From the NCBI GenBank assembly GCA_028284155.1, contig JANQSF010000134.1:248001-312000 (forward strand): DNA of 64,000 bases, given 5' to 3'. The translations under genes and the position numbers were made by a program. The notes beneath the pieces are model-generated. The model saw only the letters and a program-made list of their open reading frames with translations, was not told the DNA's origin and did not search any database. Source of the stretch: Phycisphaeraceae bacterium (GTDB taxonomy: Bacteria > Planctomycetota > Phycisphaerae > Phycisphaerales > Phycisphaeraceae). Each line of letters begins with the position of its first letter. Positions within the stretch are counted from its first letter, which is position 1. Below, piece after piece: positions 41,442-51,870 of the stretch.

Positions 41442-41516
41442 GCCGTCGTACCCCAATTCGGCAGAGGGAGCCGGCTCAGACCCGGTCCAGTGCAGGTTCG
41501 AGTCCTGCCGGCGGCA
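41442..41516 (+). tRNA. tRNA-Leu-like (CAG) with short variable loop
   Basis: Acceptor GCCGTCG/CGGCGGC, anticodon stem GCCGG/CCGGT, loop CTCAGAC, T-arm GCAGG/CCTGC. The variable loop is only five bases, whereas bacterial Leu tRNAs are class II. The D-arm GTACCCCAATTCGGCAGAGG is shared with 41659 and 41745. Confidence 0.8.
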
Positions 41517-41527
41517 TTGATCGAATA

Positions 41528-41611
41528 GCCCCCGTGGCGAAACGGGAAAACGCGGTGGGTTTAAACCCCGCTGCCGACTGCGGCTTGCTGGTTCGAGTCC
41601 AGCCGGGGGCA
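41528..41611 (+). tRNA. tRNA-Leu(TAA), class II
   Basis: Acceptor GCCCCCG/CGGGGGC, anticodon stem GTGGG/CCCGC, loop TTTAAAC, normal long variable arm (GCCGACTGCGGC), T-arm GCTGG/CCAGC. It contrasts with its short-armed Leu neighbours. Confidence 0.88.
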
Positions 41612-41658
41612 TTCCGGTGAAACGCCGGAAACACTTTTCAGGCAGTTGCGTTGAGTCT

Positions 41659-41732
41659 GGCCCGGTATCCCAACCGGCAGAGGAAGCGGATTCAAACCCC
41701 GCGCGTTGTGGGTTCGACTCCCACCCGGGCCA
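41659..41732 (+). tRNA. tRNA-Leu-like (CAA) with short variable loop
   Basis: Acceptor GGCCCGG/CCGGGCC, anticodon loop TTCAAAC on a stem whose last pair is A-C, variable loop of five bases, T-arm GTGGG/CCCAC. D-arm of the T-A-T/C-C-C-C-A-A type. Confidence 0.78.
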
Positions 41733-41744
41733 CTTACTTACCTG

Positions 41745-41819
41745 GTCGCCGTACCCCAATCCGGCAGAGGGACAGCGCCGAGAACGCTGACAGTGGAGGT
41801 TCGAGTCCTCCCGGCGACA
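41745..41819 (+). tRNA. tRNA-Leu-like (GAG) with short variable loop and C33
   Basis: Acceptor GTCGCCG/CGGCGAC, perfect anticodon stem CAGCG/CGCTG, loop CCGAGAA (GAG at 34-36, C at 33), variable loop of five bases, T-arm GGAGG/CCTCC. The D-arm matches the CAG and CAA members. Confidence 0.78.
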
Positions 41820-43084: not shown

Positions 43085-43158
43085 GTGACGGAAGCTGAAG
43101 CGGCCGAAGCACCAGGACGTGACCCTGGGGGAAGCGGGTTCGAGTCCCGTCCGTCACC
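43085..43158 (+). tRNA. tRNA-His(GTG) with C33 and no encoded G-1
   Basis: Acceptor GTGACGG/CCGTCAC, discriminator C (His identity), anticodon stem CCAGG/CCTGG, loop ACGTGAC (C33). The base at -1 is T, so the G-1 required by bacterial HisRS is not encoded. It starts two bases after tRNA-Pro. Confidence 0.78.
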
Positions 43159-43332: not shown

Positions 43333-43338
43333 TTGCAT

Positions 43339-43412
43339 GGACTGGTAGCTCAAGCGGGCAGAGCACCCGGCTTTTAACCGGGAGGTTGTGGGATCATGGC
43401 CCACCCGGTCCA
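43339..43412 (+). tRNA. tRNA-Lys(TTT) with degenerate T-loop
   Basis: Acceptor GGACTGG/CCGGTCC, anticodon stem CCCGG/CCGGG, loop CTTTTAA. The T-stem GTGGG/CCCAC is intact but the loop reads ATCATGG instead of TTCRANY, losing the T54-Psi55-C56 signature. Six bases after tRNA-Gly. Confidence 0.75.
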
Positions 43413-43529
43413 TTACGATGGCATCTCCCAATTCGGCGCTGGTTCGCCATTACCTTCACAACTGGAAAGCACACCAGTAATCTGACTTTGCTGCAATGAC
43501 CTAATCCAACATACCGATTGGAGCCGCGA

Positions 43530-44435
43530 ATGGCCACTATATGGGATACACAGAATCGGATTGTGTTTCAGAGGGGAGTTGCTTGGCAGAAAGACTCCGA
43601 CGGTCAGTGGCACTGCGAAGGAACAGATGAGAACGTTGGACGAATCACTGCCAAATACATGGTTGAAGAGCTGCAACTTCGCCCACTTCGGATCTATCCA
43701 GATGTGCAGTATACACACTCGTTGCTTCTGCCATTTGGTCGAGGAGGTGCACTCGACATAGAACTGGCCGAAATCGAACAGCGTCGTATTCTACAAATGT
43801 CATCAGATGGCACTATTGCTTCAGCGGACGCGCGCAATCTCAGAGTCGTGATGTACAATATGCAATGTGTTTTGTATCACTGCAAGCAACTCTCGCAGTC
43901 CTACGTCAGTACAGTCGCGGAATTCACCAAATGGCCAAATCCGCCGACACTAGGCGATCGGGTTGGATTCGCGTCGATGGAGCCATTCTTCGAGTTTGAT
44001 GCACTCGTCACAGCGGTTGTTCGAACGCTAGACAGTCTGCGTCGTCCGATCTGGAACAAGTTCGGCAATCCTGGGTCAATGCCAAGCTCGTTCAATCGCG
44101 TTCTCGACGATACGTCTATCGCATTGAAGATGCCACGCCACTTGTTTGACAAGCTAGCTCTTGTAAGAACTAATTGGTTTGACAAAGCGAAGGAGTATCG
44201 TGATTGTGTACAACACTACTACTCGCCGGGATCCGCTGGACCTCGGAGTATCATGGAACGTCGCACACCGGGCTTATGGACGCTCACCGCGTGGCTACCA
44301 GATGAACCGAGCCGTTCCCTTGATGAGTTCAAGTTTACGAAGCAAATCGATGTGCTTGACTACGGGTGGGAACTCACGACAAGAGCCGTAGATGCCTTGG
44401 CCGTAGTAATGGACATCTATGACCCAGCCGCCTAA
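43530..44435 (+). CDS. HEPN-like protein candidate in the tRNA array, low-GC gene
   Basis: 301 residues, no signal or membrane helix. The second half is helical: two predicted helices (Y-N-M-Q-C-V-L-Y-H-C-K-Q and F-D-A-L-V-T-A-V-V-R-T-L) precede K-E-Y-R-D-C-V-Q-H-Y, whose Arg224 and His229 match the RX4H catalytic motif of HEPN ribonucleases. HEPN assignment is tentative. The coding sequence is visibly lower in GC than all neighbours, suggesting transfer. ATG 43530 is used; TTG 43518 is possible. It lies between tRNA-Lys and tRNA-Asn, so an RNA target such as tRNA is attractive but unproven. Confidence 0.6.
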   Translation: MATIWDTQNRIVFQRGVAWQKDSDGQWHCEGTDENVGRITAKYMVEELQLRPLRIYPDVQYTHSLLLPFGRGGALDIELAEIEQRRILQMSSDGTIASADARNLRVVMYNMQCVLYHCKQLSQSYVSTVAEFTKWPNPPTLGDRVGFASMEPFFEFDALVTAVVRTLDSLRRPIWNKFGNPGSMPSSFNRVLDDTSIALKMPRHLFDKLALVRTNWFDKAKEYRDCVQHYYSPGSAGPRSIMERRTPGLWTLTAWLPDEPSRSLDEFKFTKQIDVLDYGWELTTRAVDALAVVMDIYDPAA

Positions 44436-44460
44436 CACCCCGCACTTGAACATACGTCTT

Positions 44461-44532
44461 TGCATCGTAGCTCAACGGTAGAGCGGCGCCCTGTTAAGGC
44501 GACGGTTGCTGGTTCGAGTCCAGCCGGTGCAG
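44461..44532 (+). tRNA. tRNA-Asn(GTT)
   Basis: Acceptor TGCATCG/CGGTGCA, loop CTGTTAA, T-arm GCTGG/CCAGC, discriminator G (Asn identity). The outermost anticodon-stem pair is G-A. Confidence 0.88.
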
Positions 44533-44539
44533 TTGGGGA

Positions 44540-44682
44540 GTAGCGGTTAGCTTTTAGCGGTCAGCGGTCAGCCAGAGTCGGCGGCCCGGCGTTGGTTGAA
44601 AAGGCTGATCGCTATCCGCTTCTGGCTGACCGCTGACCGCTACCCGCTTCTTGCTGATCGCTGATCGCTAACAGCTAAAAGC
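44540..44682. repeat. AGC-heptamer inverted repeat, copy 3 (Asn-Trp spacer), expanded
   Basis: The first arm (44540-44573) carries AGCGGTT, AGCTTTT, AGCGGTC units. Two blocks of the complementary GCTGAnC units follow (44603-44645 and 44653-44682), so this copy appears duplicated on one side. Confidence 0.75.
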
Positions 44683-46099: not shown

Positions 46100-46480
46100 G
46101 GGCTTCTCCAGGTCCGGGTGCGGTAAGAACGAACCACAAGCGCCGGGCGTGTCTCACGTCCTGACCGCACGAACACGTTGTGCTTGGCCAAGCGAGACGA
46201 CACACCCATCGCGCGGCCGAACTACGCGTTCGGCTGGCAGGGTCGCGGGCATGCACCCGACCTGGGATGAAGGAAGGATCAGATAGCGGTTGGCTGTGGA
46301 GGTCGGCTGCGCACCGCAGGTCAAGTTGTCAGGCGGGCCGCGGATGCAAACACATGTGCGCGGCACGCCTGGGCCGACGATCGCCCTCTAACCAAGTGAC
46401 AGACAAGGCCGGCTGCTAGCAAGTACGGCCGAGCAGGTCGTTTGGTTCGTCACGCATGAACACGCAACGCGACCTACTTC
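46100..46480. other. Non-coding stretch before the GAGGCTCC inverted repeat
   Basis: No supportable gene; short frames on both strands have low-complexity composition and no ribosome sites. It separates the membrane-protein gene from the next inverted repeat and tRNA-Gly. Confidence 0.4.
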
Positions 46481-46562
46481 GGGAGGGCGAGGCTCCGTCC
46501 GAGCCGTGGCGAAGTCTGTGCGACCAACTCGCCCCGCGGCTCGGACGGAGCCTCGCCCTCCC
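46481..46562. repeat. Perfect 26-bp inverted repeat (GAGGCTCCGTCCGAGCC type)
   Basis: Arms 46481-46506 and 46537-46562 are exact complements with a 30-base loop. This GC-rich word looks like a genome-wide dispersed hairpin rather than a tRNA-array element. Confidence 0.92.
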
Positions 46563-46641
46563 CATGTATCAAAGCCAAATACGTTCCAAGCCGGGGTGTC
46601 GCCCGTCCGCGTGGGCGGGCGGCATTCCATTTACCAACACT

Positions 46642-46756: not shown

Positions 46757-46855
46757 ATGACTGTTAGCCAACCCCTCACTGCACCCTCGTGCCCGTCGGC
46801 CCGCACCGGAGCGGACCTGGTGGGCGACTGTTCGATTGACATCGATTCGAGTTGA
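46757..46855 (+). CDS. Possible 32-residue small protein
   Basis: ATG 46757 follows AAAGGA and reads M-T-V-S-Q-P-L-T-A-P-S-C-P to a TGA 13 bases before the next ATG (46869), which has its own AAGGAG. Acidic C-terminal end (D-C-S-I-D-I-D-S-S). The two could form a small operon or leader plus gene. Support is ribosome site and spacing only. Confidence 0.4.
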   Translation: MTVSQPLTAPSCPSARTGADLVGDCSIDIDSS

Positions 46856-46868
46856 CAAGGAGTCCACC

Positions 46869-47681
46869 ATGGACAAAGGACTACTCAAGTCCGAGTTTGA
46901 GCGGATCGGGTCGCGCATCGAGATCAACAATTCGAGACGTCGGACCCGTCGCCGTGATCTATTCAGCCTCGACGTCGTGCATGACAAGGATGGAGAGCTA
47001 TTCAGCCTTCGTTCGAGAGTCACGACGATCCAACACTGGCGTGTACTTGACAGCCGACCGGACATGAAGCACCTGCTGCTGGGCATCCAGGTACATTCGT
47101 TCGGGTTCATCGACTCGTACAAGTACCTTTGCGGCCGTGATGAACGGCACTGGTTTGTCGCGGCGATCCCGCCCCACCCTTCGTCGCAAACGGTGGCGGA
47201 GGCGATGGAGGCCTTAAAGCCGCCGGTCGTGCTCGATGCACAGTTCGCAGCCGGCATTCGTCCTTTCGAGCGACTACGCCGCCGCAACGCCGCGTACATC
47301 CGTCAGGGCGAATGGTTCTTTGTACCAAGACCTGATGATCACTACAGCCAGCGACAAGTCCGCAAGGACGAGCCGCTGAGCCGCGGAAACGGCAGCAAAC
47401 CACACGTTGTTGAAGAAGCTGTACGTTTCGGTGGCGAGGTGGTGTTCGTGAGCGATGCCGTACCGACAGGTCTGACCGGCCGCGAATTGGCTGACTGGTG
47501 CCGAGTTCACCCGCACCGCCGCGTCGAATGGCGCGAAATGCGTCGCGGTGCCAAGGTCCTGGTCCGCGGTCGAGTTTGGCATCCCGACCACGAGACGATC
47601 ACGCTCAATGGATGGCACGAGGTCGCCATGAACCGGGAAAGTGAAGCCCCGGCCATGCGTCACGTCGTGTTCCTCGACTGA
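46869..47681 (+). CDS. Orphan protein within the tRNA array
   Basis: 270 residues, basic, no signal or membrane helix. The start (M-D-K-G-L-L-K-S-E-F-E-R-I-G-S-R) has a strong AAGGAG site. I recognise no family. The N-terminal half is beta-rich with R-R-R-T-R-R-R-D-L-F-S-L-D-V; the C-terminal half has W-C-R-V-H-P-H-R-R-V-E-W-R-E-M and H-P-D-H-E-T-I-T-L-N-G-W-H, a pattern rich in Arg, Trp and His as in nucleic-acid-binding proteins (inference). It follows tRNA-Gly and a small ORF. Confidence 0.65.
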   Translation: MDKGLLKSEFERIGSRIEINNSRRRTRRRDLFSLDVVHDKDGELFSLRSRVTTIQHWRVLDSRPDMKHLLLGIQVHSFGFIDSYKYLCGRDERHWFVAAIPPHPSSQTVAEAMEALKPPVVLDAQFAAGIRPFERLRRRNAAYIRQGEWFFVPRPDDHYSQRQVRKDEPLSRGNGSKPHVVEEAVRFGGEVVFVSDAVPTGLTGRELADWCRVHPHRRVEWREMRRGAKVLVRGRVWHPDHETITLNGWHEVAMNRESEAPAMRHVVFLD

Positions 47682-49477: not shown

Positions 49478-49561
49478 GAGGTAGCTGGGCATTGGCGGGC
49501 CCACCTGGTTGTAACCCAGACGCCTTTCGGGGCCATGGCGGTTCGACTCCGTCCTGCCTCA
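49478..49561 (+). tRNA. tRNA-Tyr(GTA), class II
   Basis: Acceptor GAGGTAG/CTGCCTC, loop TTGTAAC, long variable arm as in bacterial Tyr tRNAs, T-loop TTCGACT, discriminator A. One anticodon-stem end pair is C-A. Confidence 0.88.
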
Positions 49562-49596
49562 TTGGGAAATGTGACTCTTGTAAGGAGTGTGACACG

Positions 49597-49902
49597 ATGC
49601 AGACGCAACTCAACGGCAACCTGACGATCGGCGACCTGGTCGCGCGCTACGGCGTGGCGCCGCAATCGCTGCGCAACTGGGAAGCGCAGGGCGATATCCC
49701 GCCCGCGCAGCGCACGCCCGGTGGCCACCGGCGTTACTCGCAAGAGCACGTCGATGCGCTGGACCGCCTGTTCGGTATGCAGTCTGTGCCGTGGGAGCCC
49801 ACGCGCCACAGCATCCTTCCCACCGAGGGGCCGTTGGATGTGAATGAGCGCCGTGAAACCGTTCTGAATCGGCAGGCGGGCGACTTGGCAGCCATTCTCT
49901 GA
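49597..49902 (+). CDS. MerR-type helix-turn-helix regulator
   Basis: 101 residues. L-T-I-G-D-L-V-A-R-Y-G-V-A-P-Q-S-L-R-N-W-E-A-Q-G is the MerR-type winged helix (about 9-32), followed by P-A-Q-R-T-P-G-G-H-R-R-Y and a short D-V-D-x-L tail. There is no metal-binding Cys or long dimer helix, so it is a minimal HTH protein like BldC/excisionase-type regulators. AAGGAG precedes ATG 49597 by 9 bases. It starts 35 bases after tRNA-Tyr, and its TGA is immediately followed by the upstream ATG of the RNA ligase frame, so both are probably one transcript and it may regulate the ligase. Confidence 0.88.
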   Translation: MQTQLNGNLTIGDLVARYGVAPQSLRNWEAQGDIPPAQRTPGGHRRYSQEHVDALDRLFGMQSVPWEPTRHSILPTEGPLDVNERRETVLNRQAGDLAAIL

Positions 49903-49938
49903 ATGACCCAGGCGGCCTGCTGCGACGGATGGACTGTT

Positions 49939-50658
49939 ATGCGCGAACGCAAGCCACTAGGACGCAAAGCTTACGGCTCGATCGGCCATATGCCCGGCAG
50001 CCGTCGTGGCCCGGGTGATCATGGTGTGCATGACGGGCAGGGCGCGATCTGCACCGTCAAGCCGCGTGATCGGCATGACACCGTGATTGTCCAGGAGAAG
50101 CTCGACGGCAGCAACGTCGCGGTGGCTCGTGTTGATGGTCGGCTAGTTGCACTGAACCGTGCGGGTTACGTCTGCTGGTCGTCCCGTCGGGCACAGCACC
50201 ACATGTTCGCACATTGGTTGTTTCGCAACGAGTCGTCGTTCGACTGGCTTGATGAAGGATGGCGCGTGTGCGGCGAGTGGCTCGCTCAGGCTCACGGAAC
50301 CCGGTACGACCTGGTCGGCCTGCGGCTGCCTCCCTTCGTCGCGTTCGATCTGATGAGCGGTACCCGTCGTGCTCCGCTGGCTGAGTTCGAGTCGACAGTC
50401 AAGGGCATACCGCGCGCACGCGTCATCCATGTCGGCGGTGCGTTGCCGATCGATGACGCGATGGCGATGCTTGGCGACAAGGGACAGTACGGCGCACTAG
50501 ATCAAGTCGAAGGTGCCGTGTGGCGCGTCGAGCGTCGCGGCGAGGTCGACTTCCTGGCGAAGTACGTTCGGCCTGACAAGGTGGACGGCTCCTACCTGCC
50601 CGAGTTGACGGGGAAACCGCCCGTTTGGAACTGGACGCCATTAGATCTGTCAACGTAG
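49939..50658 (+). CDS. Rnl2-like RNA ligase
   Basis: 239 residues (251 if ATG 49903 is used). All nucleotidyltransferase motifs are visible: motif I E-K-L-D-G-S-N with adenylated Lys54, motif III V-C-G-E-W-L-A-Q-A-H, IIIa P-P-F-V-A-F-D-L-M, IV V-E-G-A-V-W-R-V-E and V F-L-A-K-Y-V-R-P-D-K-V-D-G. Such ligases seal 3'-OH/5'-PO4 RNA nicks; phage T4 uses one to repair tRNAs cut by host anticodon nucleases. The setting inside a tRNA array, between tRNA-Tyr and tRNA-Leu, and directly after a MerR gene, suggests tRNA repair. No kinase/phosphatase partner is next to it. The start is uncertain. Confidence 0.85.
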   Translation: MRERKPLGRKAYGSIGHMPGSRRGPGDHGVHDGQGAICTVKPRDRHDTVIVQEKLDGSNVAVARVDGRLVALNRAGYVCWSSRRAQHHMFAHWLFRNESSFDWLDEGWRVCGEWLAQAHGTRYDLVGLRLPPFVAFDLMSGTRRAPLAEFESTVKGIPRARVIHVGGALPIDDAMAMLGDKGQYGALDQVEGAVWRVERRGEVDFLAKYVRPDKVDGSYLPELTGKPPVWNWTPLDLST

Positions 50659-50794: not shown

Positions 50795-50880
50795 GGCCCA
50801 GTGGCGGAATTGGCAGACGCGACGGACTTAAAATCCGTTCCATGGCGACATGGGTGTGGGTTCGAGTCCCACCTGGGCCA
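50795..50880 (+). tRNA. tRNA-Leu(TAA), class II, last tRNA of the array
   Basis: Acceptor GGCCCAG/CTGGGCC, anticodon stem ACGGA/TCCGT, loop CTTAAAA, long variable arm, T-arm GTGGG/CCCAC. Canonical D-arm TGGCGGAATTGGCAGACGC, unlike the short-armed Leu tRNAs; it may be the native chromosomal gene at which the array sits. Confidence 0.92.
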
Positions 50881-51096
50881 TTGGCCGATGCATTGCGTCA
50901 TAGTCGACCGGGCGGTCCAAGTCGAGATACTCGATCGGCCTGCCCAATGACGGCGTGCAATGCGAGGGACACCCAGCGATTGCCGTCGCCGCCAGCGAAT
51001 GCAAAGCATGTCTATTCAGAACTTTATGACTCATTAGCAGTTGGGCGCCTGTCCAAGTAGAATAGACACCGACGGGTGGGACATGGAGTGAGCACA

Positions 51097-51870
51097 ATGC
51101 CCGAAATGGCAAGATCGATGAGAGCAGCGGCTTACGCGGCGGTTGTCGTATTGGTTTATGCCATGTCGAGCACGGTCCAAGCGGGACCGGTCACCATTGA
51201 CGACGGCCAGATCAAAGTATCAGTGAGGCGGGGGGAACCTCCAGCTTCAACGCCTTCAATGTCAACCGACGCCGAGTTTGGCACGGGCATGCTATCAGTT
51301 CAAGACAATGTGCTTCCGTCGAACATCGCAACCGTAGAGTATGACTTATCGCAAACCGGATTCATCATTGACAGCACGCTCGAGATCGATACTCGCAAAG
51401 GGTCACTGGCGAGATCATTCGACACGGGCATGAACTTCATCAAGTTCACTGTTACTCAAAACGGTACTTACGACCTGTCTGGATACATCTCCGCAACCAA
51501 TCATGCCAAAGTAACGCTGAAGGTCGTATTGTGGGATGTGACAGCCGGCACACAGGAACTTTTCAGCAACGAACAAGTCAGTATCAACACGCCGGACGAA
51601 GTGCTAACTCTAGGGGAAACAGGAGGCGATTCGACTAACACTCTATCAGGCAGCCTTACGGGCAGTTTGATCGCGGGCCATTCTTATTCTTTCTTCTACG
51701 AGACAGAGATCATCAACTCAAACAACACCACGCACCTTGCCTCGTCTACATCCGCTACATCGAACATTACCCTCGCCCTGACCGTCCCCAGCCCCGCCGC
51801 GGCGGGACTGGGCCTTCCGTTACTTGGGATGCTTGGCATGTCGCGTCCTCGTCGTCGCCGGTCGTTCTGA
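51097..51870 (+). CDS. Exported protein with PEP-CTERM-like sorting signal
   Basis: 257 residues. A signal peptide (to about 31, V-Q-A-G) precedes a Thr/Ser/Asn-rich beta domain. The C-terminus has V-P-S-P-A-A-A-G-L, a hydrophobic helix and R-P-R-R-R-R-S-F, the three-part PEP-CTERM layout that exosortase recognises (here P-S-P rather than P-E-P). GGAG precedes the ATG by 8 bases. Such proteins associate with extracellular polysaccharide. The gene has fewer G/C bases than its neighbours. Function unknown. Confidence 0.75.
   Translation: MPEMARSMRAAAYAAVVVLVYAMSSTVQAGPVTIDDGQIKVSVRRGEPPASTPSMSTDAEFGTGMLSVQDNVLPSNIATVEYDLSQTGFIIDSTLEIDTRKGSLARSFDTGMNFIKFTVTQNGTYDLSGYISATNHAKVTLKVVLWDVTAGTQELFSNEQVSINTPDEVLTLGETGGDSTNTLSGSLTGSLIAGHSYSFFYETEIINSNNTTHLASSTSATSNITLALTVPSPAAAGLGLPLLGMLGMSRPRRRRSF

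Follow-up and report, generated by a model that had tools for sequence, protein, structure and literature searches.

The low-GC gene at 43530-44435 probably encodes a HEPN-superfamily RNase of an undescribed, rare family that was acquired horizontally and inserted between the tRNA-Lys and tRNA-Asn genes of a conserved tRNA array, where it would serve as an effector against phages or in stress. This reading builds on the conserved RD-x3-H and Dx3[KR] signatures, on the order of helices in a low-confidence model, and on the presence of 11 HEPN structures in the best 50 rows of a VIA alignment. It further builds on the lowest GC content in the window (i.e., the whole 64-kb stretch of DNA that was analysed), a patchy distribution, the location of one relative (P0002) in a defence-like island, and the absence of the gene from 12 orthologous arrays. 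Counted against it are the lack of a match to any HEPN profile or PDB sequence, the null result of Foldseek and the ties in VIA, the fact that no antitoxin or regulator was recognised beside the gene, and the small number of relatives, one of which is weak. The conserved array with its RNA-repair cargo is a more interesting by-product of the analysis than the HEPN-type gene. Features are listed in Table 1.

Table 1. Coordinates of the features discussed, in window positions
Feature	Position	Strand	Basis
tRNA array, 26 tRNAs, all 20 amino acids	39823..49562	+	ARAGORN and Rfam
tRNA-His(GUG)	43085..43158	+	Rfam RF00005, 44.1 bits; missed by ARAGORN
tRNA-Lys(UUU), directly 5' of the HEPN-type gene	43338..43413	+	ARAGORN
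HEPN-type RNase gene (predicted), low GC	43530..44435	+	ORF, composition, relatives with RX4H and Dx3[KR]
N-terminal ~90 residues, partly beta, not shared by the relatives	43530..43799	+	Alignment; low-confidence single-sequence model
HEPN-like domain, residues 91-301	43800..44432	+	AF2, 3-sequence alignment
Dx3[KR] codons D168-S-L-R-R172, helix 2 (model)	44031..44045	+	Dx3[KR] in all four sequences
RX4H motif codons R224-D-C-V-Q-H229, helix 3 end (model)	44199..44216	+	
tRNA-Asn(GUU), directly 3' of the HEPN-type gene	44460..44533	+	ARAGORN
Cargo gene, no known family	46836..47681	+	Shared with two related arrays, 49-50% identity
MerR/BldC-like regulator, array end	49492..49902	+	Shared with six related arrays
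Rnl-type RNA ligase, directly after the MerR gene	49903..50658	+	PF09414, E 7.7e-18

A low-GC gene with HEPN signatures

The ORF is intact, with an ATG at 43530 that is preceded at six bases by GGAG and a stop at 44435, and its product is a protein of 301 amino acids (P0001). An earlier note on this DNA had described the gene as low in GC and located inside a tRNA array, and both statements were borne out. When all 43 non-overlapping ORFs of 200 codons or more in the window are compared, its GC content is the lowest (50.9%, with a GC3 of 52.6%). GC3 was 68-82% in the genes measured within the array and just upstream, and in the gene immediately beyond the array (51076-51870) it was low as well (60%). 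The atypical base composition of the HEPN-type gene points to recent acquisition. The gene is flanked by tRNA-Lys(UUU), 116 nt upstream, and tRNA-Asn(GUU), 24 nt downstream, all in the same direction.

HEPN domains are recognised by an RX4-6H motif with a polar residue after the arginine, positioned at the end of helix 3, and by an Ex3[KR] motif (Anantharaman et al., 2013, PMC3710099). The 301-residue protein does contain the R224-D-C-V-Q-H229 sequence (Arg224, His229) to which the earlier note drew attention, and this is its sole RX4-6H. When the protein was shuffled, RX4H appeared in 33% and R[NDH]x3H in 4.3% of the versions. Because RX4H is frequent in shuffles, the presence of RDCVQH in one sequence alone is weak evidence, and the motif carries weight through being kept in one alignment column in relatives of 22-24% identity as well as in a weaker one.

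The searches identified two clear relatives, both in the same bacterial class: P0002 (E 9.6e-8) and P0003 (E 3.3e-7; E 4e-10 in a pairwise BLASTP with P0001). Their overall identity to P0001 is 22-24%. A third relative, P0004, is weak (E 7e-4 per genome, with 392 genomes searched). A search of the genomes with an alignment of the domain returned just the two relatives already known, a scan of genome contigs with the single protein gave none, and none was found in plasmids, phages or viral contigs. L024 and other weak matches were not accepted. Overall, the genome searches revealed no relatives beyond P0002, P0003 and P0004, and the family is sparse and patchy.

The RX4H region is the most conserved block across these relatives (two clear, one weak). 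RD-x3-H occupies one common column in all four sequences (RDCVQH, RDCFMH, RDCFTH and RDTVSH), i.e., a conserved RX4-6H motif with a polar residue after the arginine is present in each of P0001-P0004. An acidic residue followed by x3[KR] in helix 2, which is a common but not universal HEPN feature, is present in all four as well (DSLRR, DALAR, DLLAR and DLAIK), in the form Dx3[KR] where the published form is Ex3[KR]. Nine columns are invariant in all four proteins; three of them belong to the motif (R, D and H) and one to helix 2 (the D of Dx3[KR]). The helix 2 region of P0004 reads FEFEA...LDLAIK; since the automatic match to P0004 stopped short of helix 2, this region provides partly independent support.

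Database searches were uninformative. Scans of the protein against Pfam, PADLOC, NCBIfam and PHROGs gave no informative match, no HEPN family was hit in sequence searches of the PDB, and none of P0001-P0004 was matched by the curated HEPN profiles. The window gene was also not matched when the HEPN_Cthe2314 profile was run against its own genome. Profile-profile methods are needed to recognise many of the HEPN families.

Structure prediction of the full protein from the single sequence was poor (AF2, pLDDT 41.8), and a model of residues ~91-301 that included the two relatives in a 3-sequence alignment reached a pLDDT of 56.6 and a pTM of 0.56. Both models agree on a helical C-terminal half, which is what the earlier note had described. 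In the low-confidence domain model, a long helix 1 is followed by a short strand, helix 2, a short helix, helix 3 ending at the motif, a beta hairpin and helix 4. This modelled order, in which helix 3 ends with the motif, is HEPN-like, which is consistent with a HEPN fold but not proof of it. Foldseek gave no significant match with the domain model, and a BFVD search with the protein gave no credible match. When the Foldseek candidates were aligned with VIA, 11 HEPN structures were among the best 50 rows (8xdj, 8xeh, 5yep, 8yuf, 6m6u, 7ae6, 7ae8, 2hsb, 7ae9, 1wwp and 4nqf), with Z scores of 6.0-7.2 that are tied with those of actin-binding, designed and other bundles.

The RX4H motif might also be a chance occurrence in a helical protein that has a different fold and function, as could be argued from its frequency in shuffles, the lack of a HEPN profile match and VIA Z scores that tie with unrelated bundles. 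However, the arginine, the polar aspartate and the histidine are kept at 22-24% overall identity and lie at the predicted end of helix 3, and Dx3[KR] in helix 2 is kept too, also in the weak P0004, whose automatic match omitted helix 2. We consider a chance motif improbable and the domain likely to be HEPN. The HEPN domain suggested in the earlier note thus stands on the side of the conserved signatures, which support a HEPN-type RNase well at the sequence level, and on the side of structure it is consistent but unproven. The N-terminal ~90 residues, which the relatives do not share, are possibly a sensing or control part.

The surroundings of the relatives were also inspected. P0002, from a Humisphaera MAG, is encoded less than 4 kb from an HmaC-like DUF499 ATPase (PADLOC E 4e-116), with a DUF6119 gene nearby, and its neighbourhood is defence-like. 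In this region (L018 869-8531), the P0002 gene directly follows a short ORF that appears GIY-YIG-like by eye and has no Pfam match. The P0003 gene (L019 7686-8498) starts 34 nt past a tRNA-Sec gene (L019 7557-7651), so that a tRNA-adjacent placement recurs once in the family. tRNA genes are common insertion sites. A search for attachment-site repeats yielded only tRNA T-loop repeats around the window gene and none at P0003, and consequently neither site bears a visible scar of tRNA-site integration.

The tRNA array and its counterparts in Phycisphaerae

The array consists of 25 tRNAs detected by ARAGORN and a tRNA-His(GUG) found by Rfam alone, which has C33 instead of the invariant U33 and brings the array to 20 amino acids. 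Its 26 tRNAs, out of 74 in the genome (Rfam search), are packed in 9.7 kb, are largely redundant in anticodon with the scattered core set, and are 56-77% identical to the core isoacceptors; the cluster is thus dense, redundant and divergent, as is characteristic of a tRNA array unit. The scattered tRNAs form an almost complete housekeeping set, in which tRNA-Asn was not recognised; the assembly is 95.7% complete. In six of six non-Pro isoacceptors (Asp, Arg-ACG, Arg-CCG, Leu-CAG, Leu-GAG and Gln-UUG), the array has A37 where the core has G37, and because of this replacement the Leu and Arg members of the array would escape m1G37 methylation. Several anticodon loops, including that of Lys, are identical between core and array.

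Three array Leu tRNAs of 75 nt (CAG, CAA and GAG, at 41442-41819) are without the long variable arm, and the same is seen in most related arrays. Outside the array, the locus L043 (G000:C83:65292-65532) has two tandem short tRNAs of odd identity, called as Ser (GCU, ACU), again with no long variable arm. The tRNA-Leu(UAA) at 50795 is core-like (84% to a core Leu tRNA) and is probably not a member of the array. Short direct repeats occur between tRNA-Asn and tRNA-Trp (44604-44676), and a hairpin-like stretch precedes tRNA-Gly(GCC) (46475-46568), to which several RNA models matched weakly, on both strands and below thresholds. For the MerR/BldC-like gene, the listed ORF begins within tRNA-Tyr and the true start is probably near 49597. 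The cargo gene at 46836-47681 has its counterparts at L097 8323-9267 and L099 1588-2385, with protein lengths of 265-314 residues, and is a candidate functional part of the array. A phage remnant was rejected as the main reading of the array; no phage structural gene was recognised among the array genes scanned, and the array is syntenic in at least 12 cellular genomes.

Related arrays were found with the first 1.5 kb of the window array as query, and 12 of them, all from Phycisphaerae (L096-L107), were taken for comparison. They contain 8 to 38 tRNAs each and several end at contig ends, and the cargo counts are lower bounds. RtcB is located between Gly(UCC) and Lys in at least 7 of the 12, a slipin/SPFH gene between Trp and Gly(GCC) in at least 9, an HNH gene between Ala and Pro in at least 7, and the MerR/BldC-like gene after Tyr/Gln in at least 6 as well as in the window. 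A37 was found in 272 of the 310 tRNAs of arrays.

The HEPN-type gene is absent from the 12 related arrays (tblastn; profile search), and the Rnl-type ligase of the window has no counterpart in them. No RtcB, slipin or HNH gene was seen in the window array, where Gly(UCC) adjoins Lys and the HEPN-type gene comes after Lys. The genome has one RtcB outside the array, which is 34% identical to the array type. Other arrays carry one-off insertions without an evident tie to RNA, and mainly for this reason we regard the HEPN-type gene as cargo until shown otherwise, i.e., as a genome-specific insertion comparable to the unrelated cargo elsewhere.

RNA ends and possible roles of the locus

The closest relatives of the window ligase are in Flavobacterium phages (42% identity), and 40 further genomes of the family were without a match to it. 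As a member of the Rnl family, it presumably joins 5'-P/3'-OH ends. HEPN cleavage produces a 5'-OH on one side of the break. On the other side, HEPN RNases leave a 2',3'-cyclic phosphate (PMC3710099). The ligase alone could therefore not seal such a break, and a kinase/phosphatase would be needed; the array genes scanned included no recognisable one. RtcB joins 2',3'-cyclic-P/5'-OH ends directly. The suggestion in the earlier note that the island may hold both a cutter and a mender is partly supported: the mender has substance for the arrays as a class, with RtcB at one fixed place in at least 7 of 12, and a conserved pair of cutter and mender is not supported, since the HEPN-type gene and the window ligase occur in 0 of 12.

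HEPN RNases often act as effectors in defence against phages. In the mechanism that we propose, the HEPN-type protein would dimerise, and Arg224 and His229 would cleave RNA without a metal, giving 2',3'-cyclic-P and 5'-OH ends. Phage infection or stress would release the RNase, perhaps by way of the N-terminal 90 residues, the part that best qualifies for sensing or control, and translation and growth would halt. The array, which is read in the same direction, may offer the gene a transcribed site that tolerates insertions.

Other roles can be assigned to the same components. The array and ligase could protect the cell or an element from outside tRNA-cutting toxins, with the HEPN-type gene as an independent selfish or defence gene that landed there. 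The one-off genes without an evident RNA tie in other arrays and the confinement of the low GC to the HEPN-type gene are in line with this, and so is the description of mycobacterial arrays as a putative antidefence system (PMC12803027). On the other hand, P0003 too sits directly after a tRNA gene, and a protective array is compatible with the horizontally acquired RNase described above, from which it differs solely by denying use of the shared locus; we rate it as rather unlikely. A functional pair appears less likely than that. Here a HEPN anticodon nuclease would destroy the housekeeping tRNAs on infection, the array would provide substitute tRNAs with altered loops, and the ligase would mend the rest. 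The coverage of 20 amino acids, the divergence from the core (56-77% identity) and the six non-Pro cases of A37 for G37 would fit, as would RtcB in related arrays, the RNA ligase in the same island and the evasion of anticodon nucleases by phage tRNAs through loop changes (PMC10264068). However, the absence of the HEPN-type gene from all 12 related arrays implies that the tRNAs were not altered in evolution as a response to it, the A37 pattern is common to all arrays, several loops, Lys included, are the same in core and array, and HEPN RNases do not provide the ends that ligases of this family require. Slightly more doubtful still is a self-immune translation-shutdown island, in which infection or stress prompts a HEPN anticodon nuclease to deplete the housekeeping tRNAs, and the complete, co-encoded second tRNA set with its altered anticodon loops (A37 for G37) and an RNA ligase keep or restart translation.

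We thus retain the horizontally acquired HEPN-type RNase as the preferred reading, with the cutter as an add-on; it could be a partner of the array tRNAs, but this is unproven. For the array, the most likely role is that of a second set of tRNAs for use upon damage to the housekeeping tRNAs. The orphan HEPN-type family adds to the HEPN catalogue, and the larger value is in the setting, i.e., a Phycisphaerae array that joins RtcB, slipin, HNH and MerR in one locus, families that Anabaena co-regulates with a stress-induced tRNA operon. The long-open question of the role of bacterial tRNA arrays, codon supply or rescue from tRNA damage, becomes testable, and the predicted HEPN-type RNase in one array copy is a natural cutter to test against the array.

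Comparison with known systems

Like HEPN superfamily RNases, the window protein has a helical domain that carries an RX4H, with a polar residue following the arginine, at the modelled end of helix 3, and an acidic x3[KR] in modelled helix 2. Unlike these, it is not matched by a curated profile, its N-terminal part is unshared, and in the model a long beta hairpin separates helix 3 from helix 4. The HEPN chains of HEPN-MNT toxin-antitoxin pairs (8xdj, 8xeh and 5yep) are among its structural matches, whereas the gene has no adjacent nucleotidyltransferase gene: its neighbours are tRNA genes, no MNT match was found among the neighbouring proteins scanned, and no antitoxin or regulator gene was recognised beside it. 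With PrrC and RloC, which the earlier note had named for comparison, it shares a possible C-terminal HEPN domain and an RNA ligase gene in the same island. Unlike PrrC/RloC, the 301-residue protein has no ABC/SbcC-type ATPase domain (no match to an ATPase domain at E up to 10) and no linked restriction-modification genes. The comparison fails on this architecture, and membership in PrrC/RloC was rejected because the ABC ATPase is absent.

Degenerate tRNA clusters have been reported in planctomycetes (PMC4807772). In the literature searched, the coverage of which is incomplete, neither RtcB nor slipin was described as part of a tRNA array, and no array with a HEPN gene was encountered. Mycobacterial tRNA arrays with an HNH gene have been described as a putative antidefence system (PMC5966550, PMC12803027). 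Like the window array, they have many clustered, redundant and divergent tRNAs, and they mostly have an embedded HNH gene. Unlike them, the window copy is without HNH, which is present in 7 related arrays, and it represents a chromosomal locus conserved within Phycisphaerae.

Anabaena has 48 scattered tRNAs and a silent operon of 26 more that translational stress switches on; the repressor of this operon, TrcR, keeps rtcB repressed as well, and a slipin gene and HNH genes rise strongly in a trcR deletion (PMC10272220). The trn operon and TrcR regulon resemble the window in having 26 divergent, redundant tRNAs versus about 48 scattered ones, and the regulon families RtcB, slipin and HNH are also the cargo of related Phycisphaerae arrays. 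Unlike in Anabaena, the Phycisphaerae genes are physically linked in one locus and a MerR-type gene takes the place of the RHH repressor, and the window copy has a HEPN-type gene and an Rnl-type ligase and is without RtcB, slipin and HNH. By this analogy, the array looks like a tRNA-repair or replacement locus resembling the Anabaena TrcR regulon.
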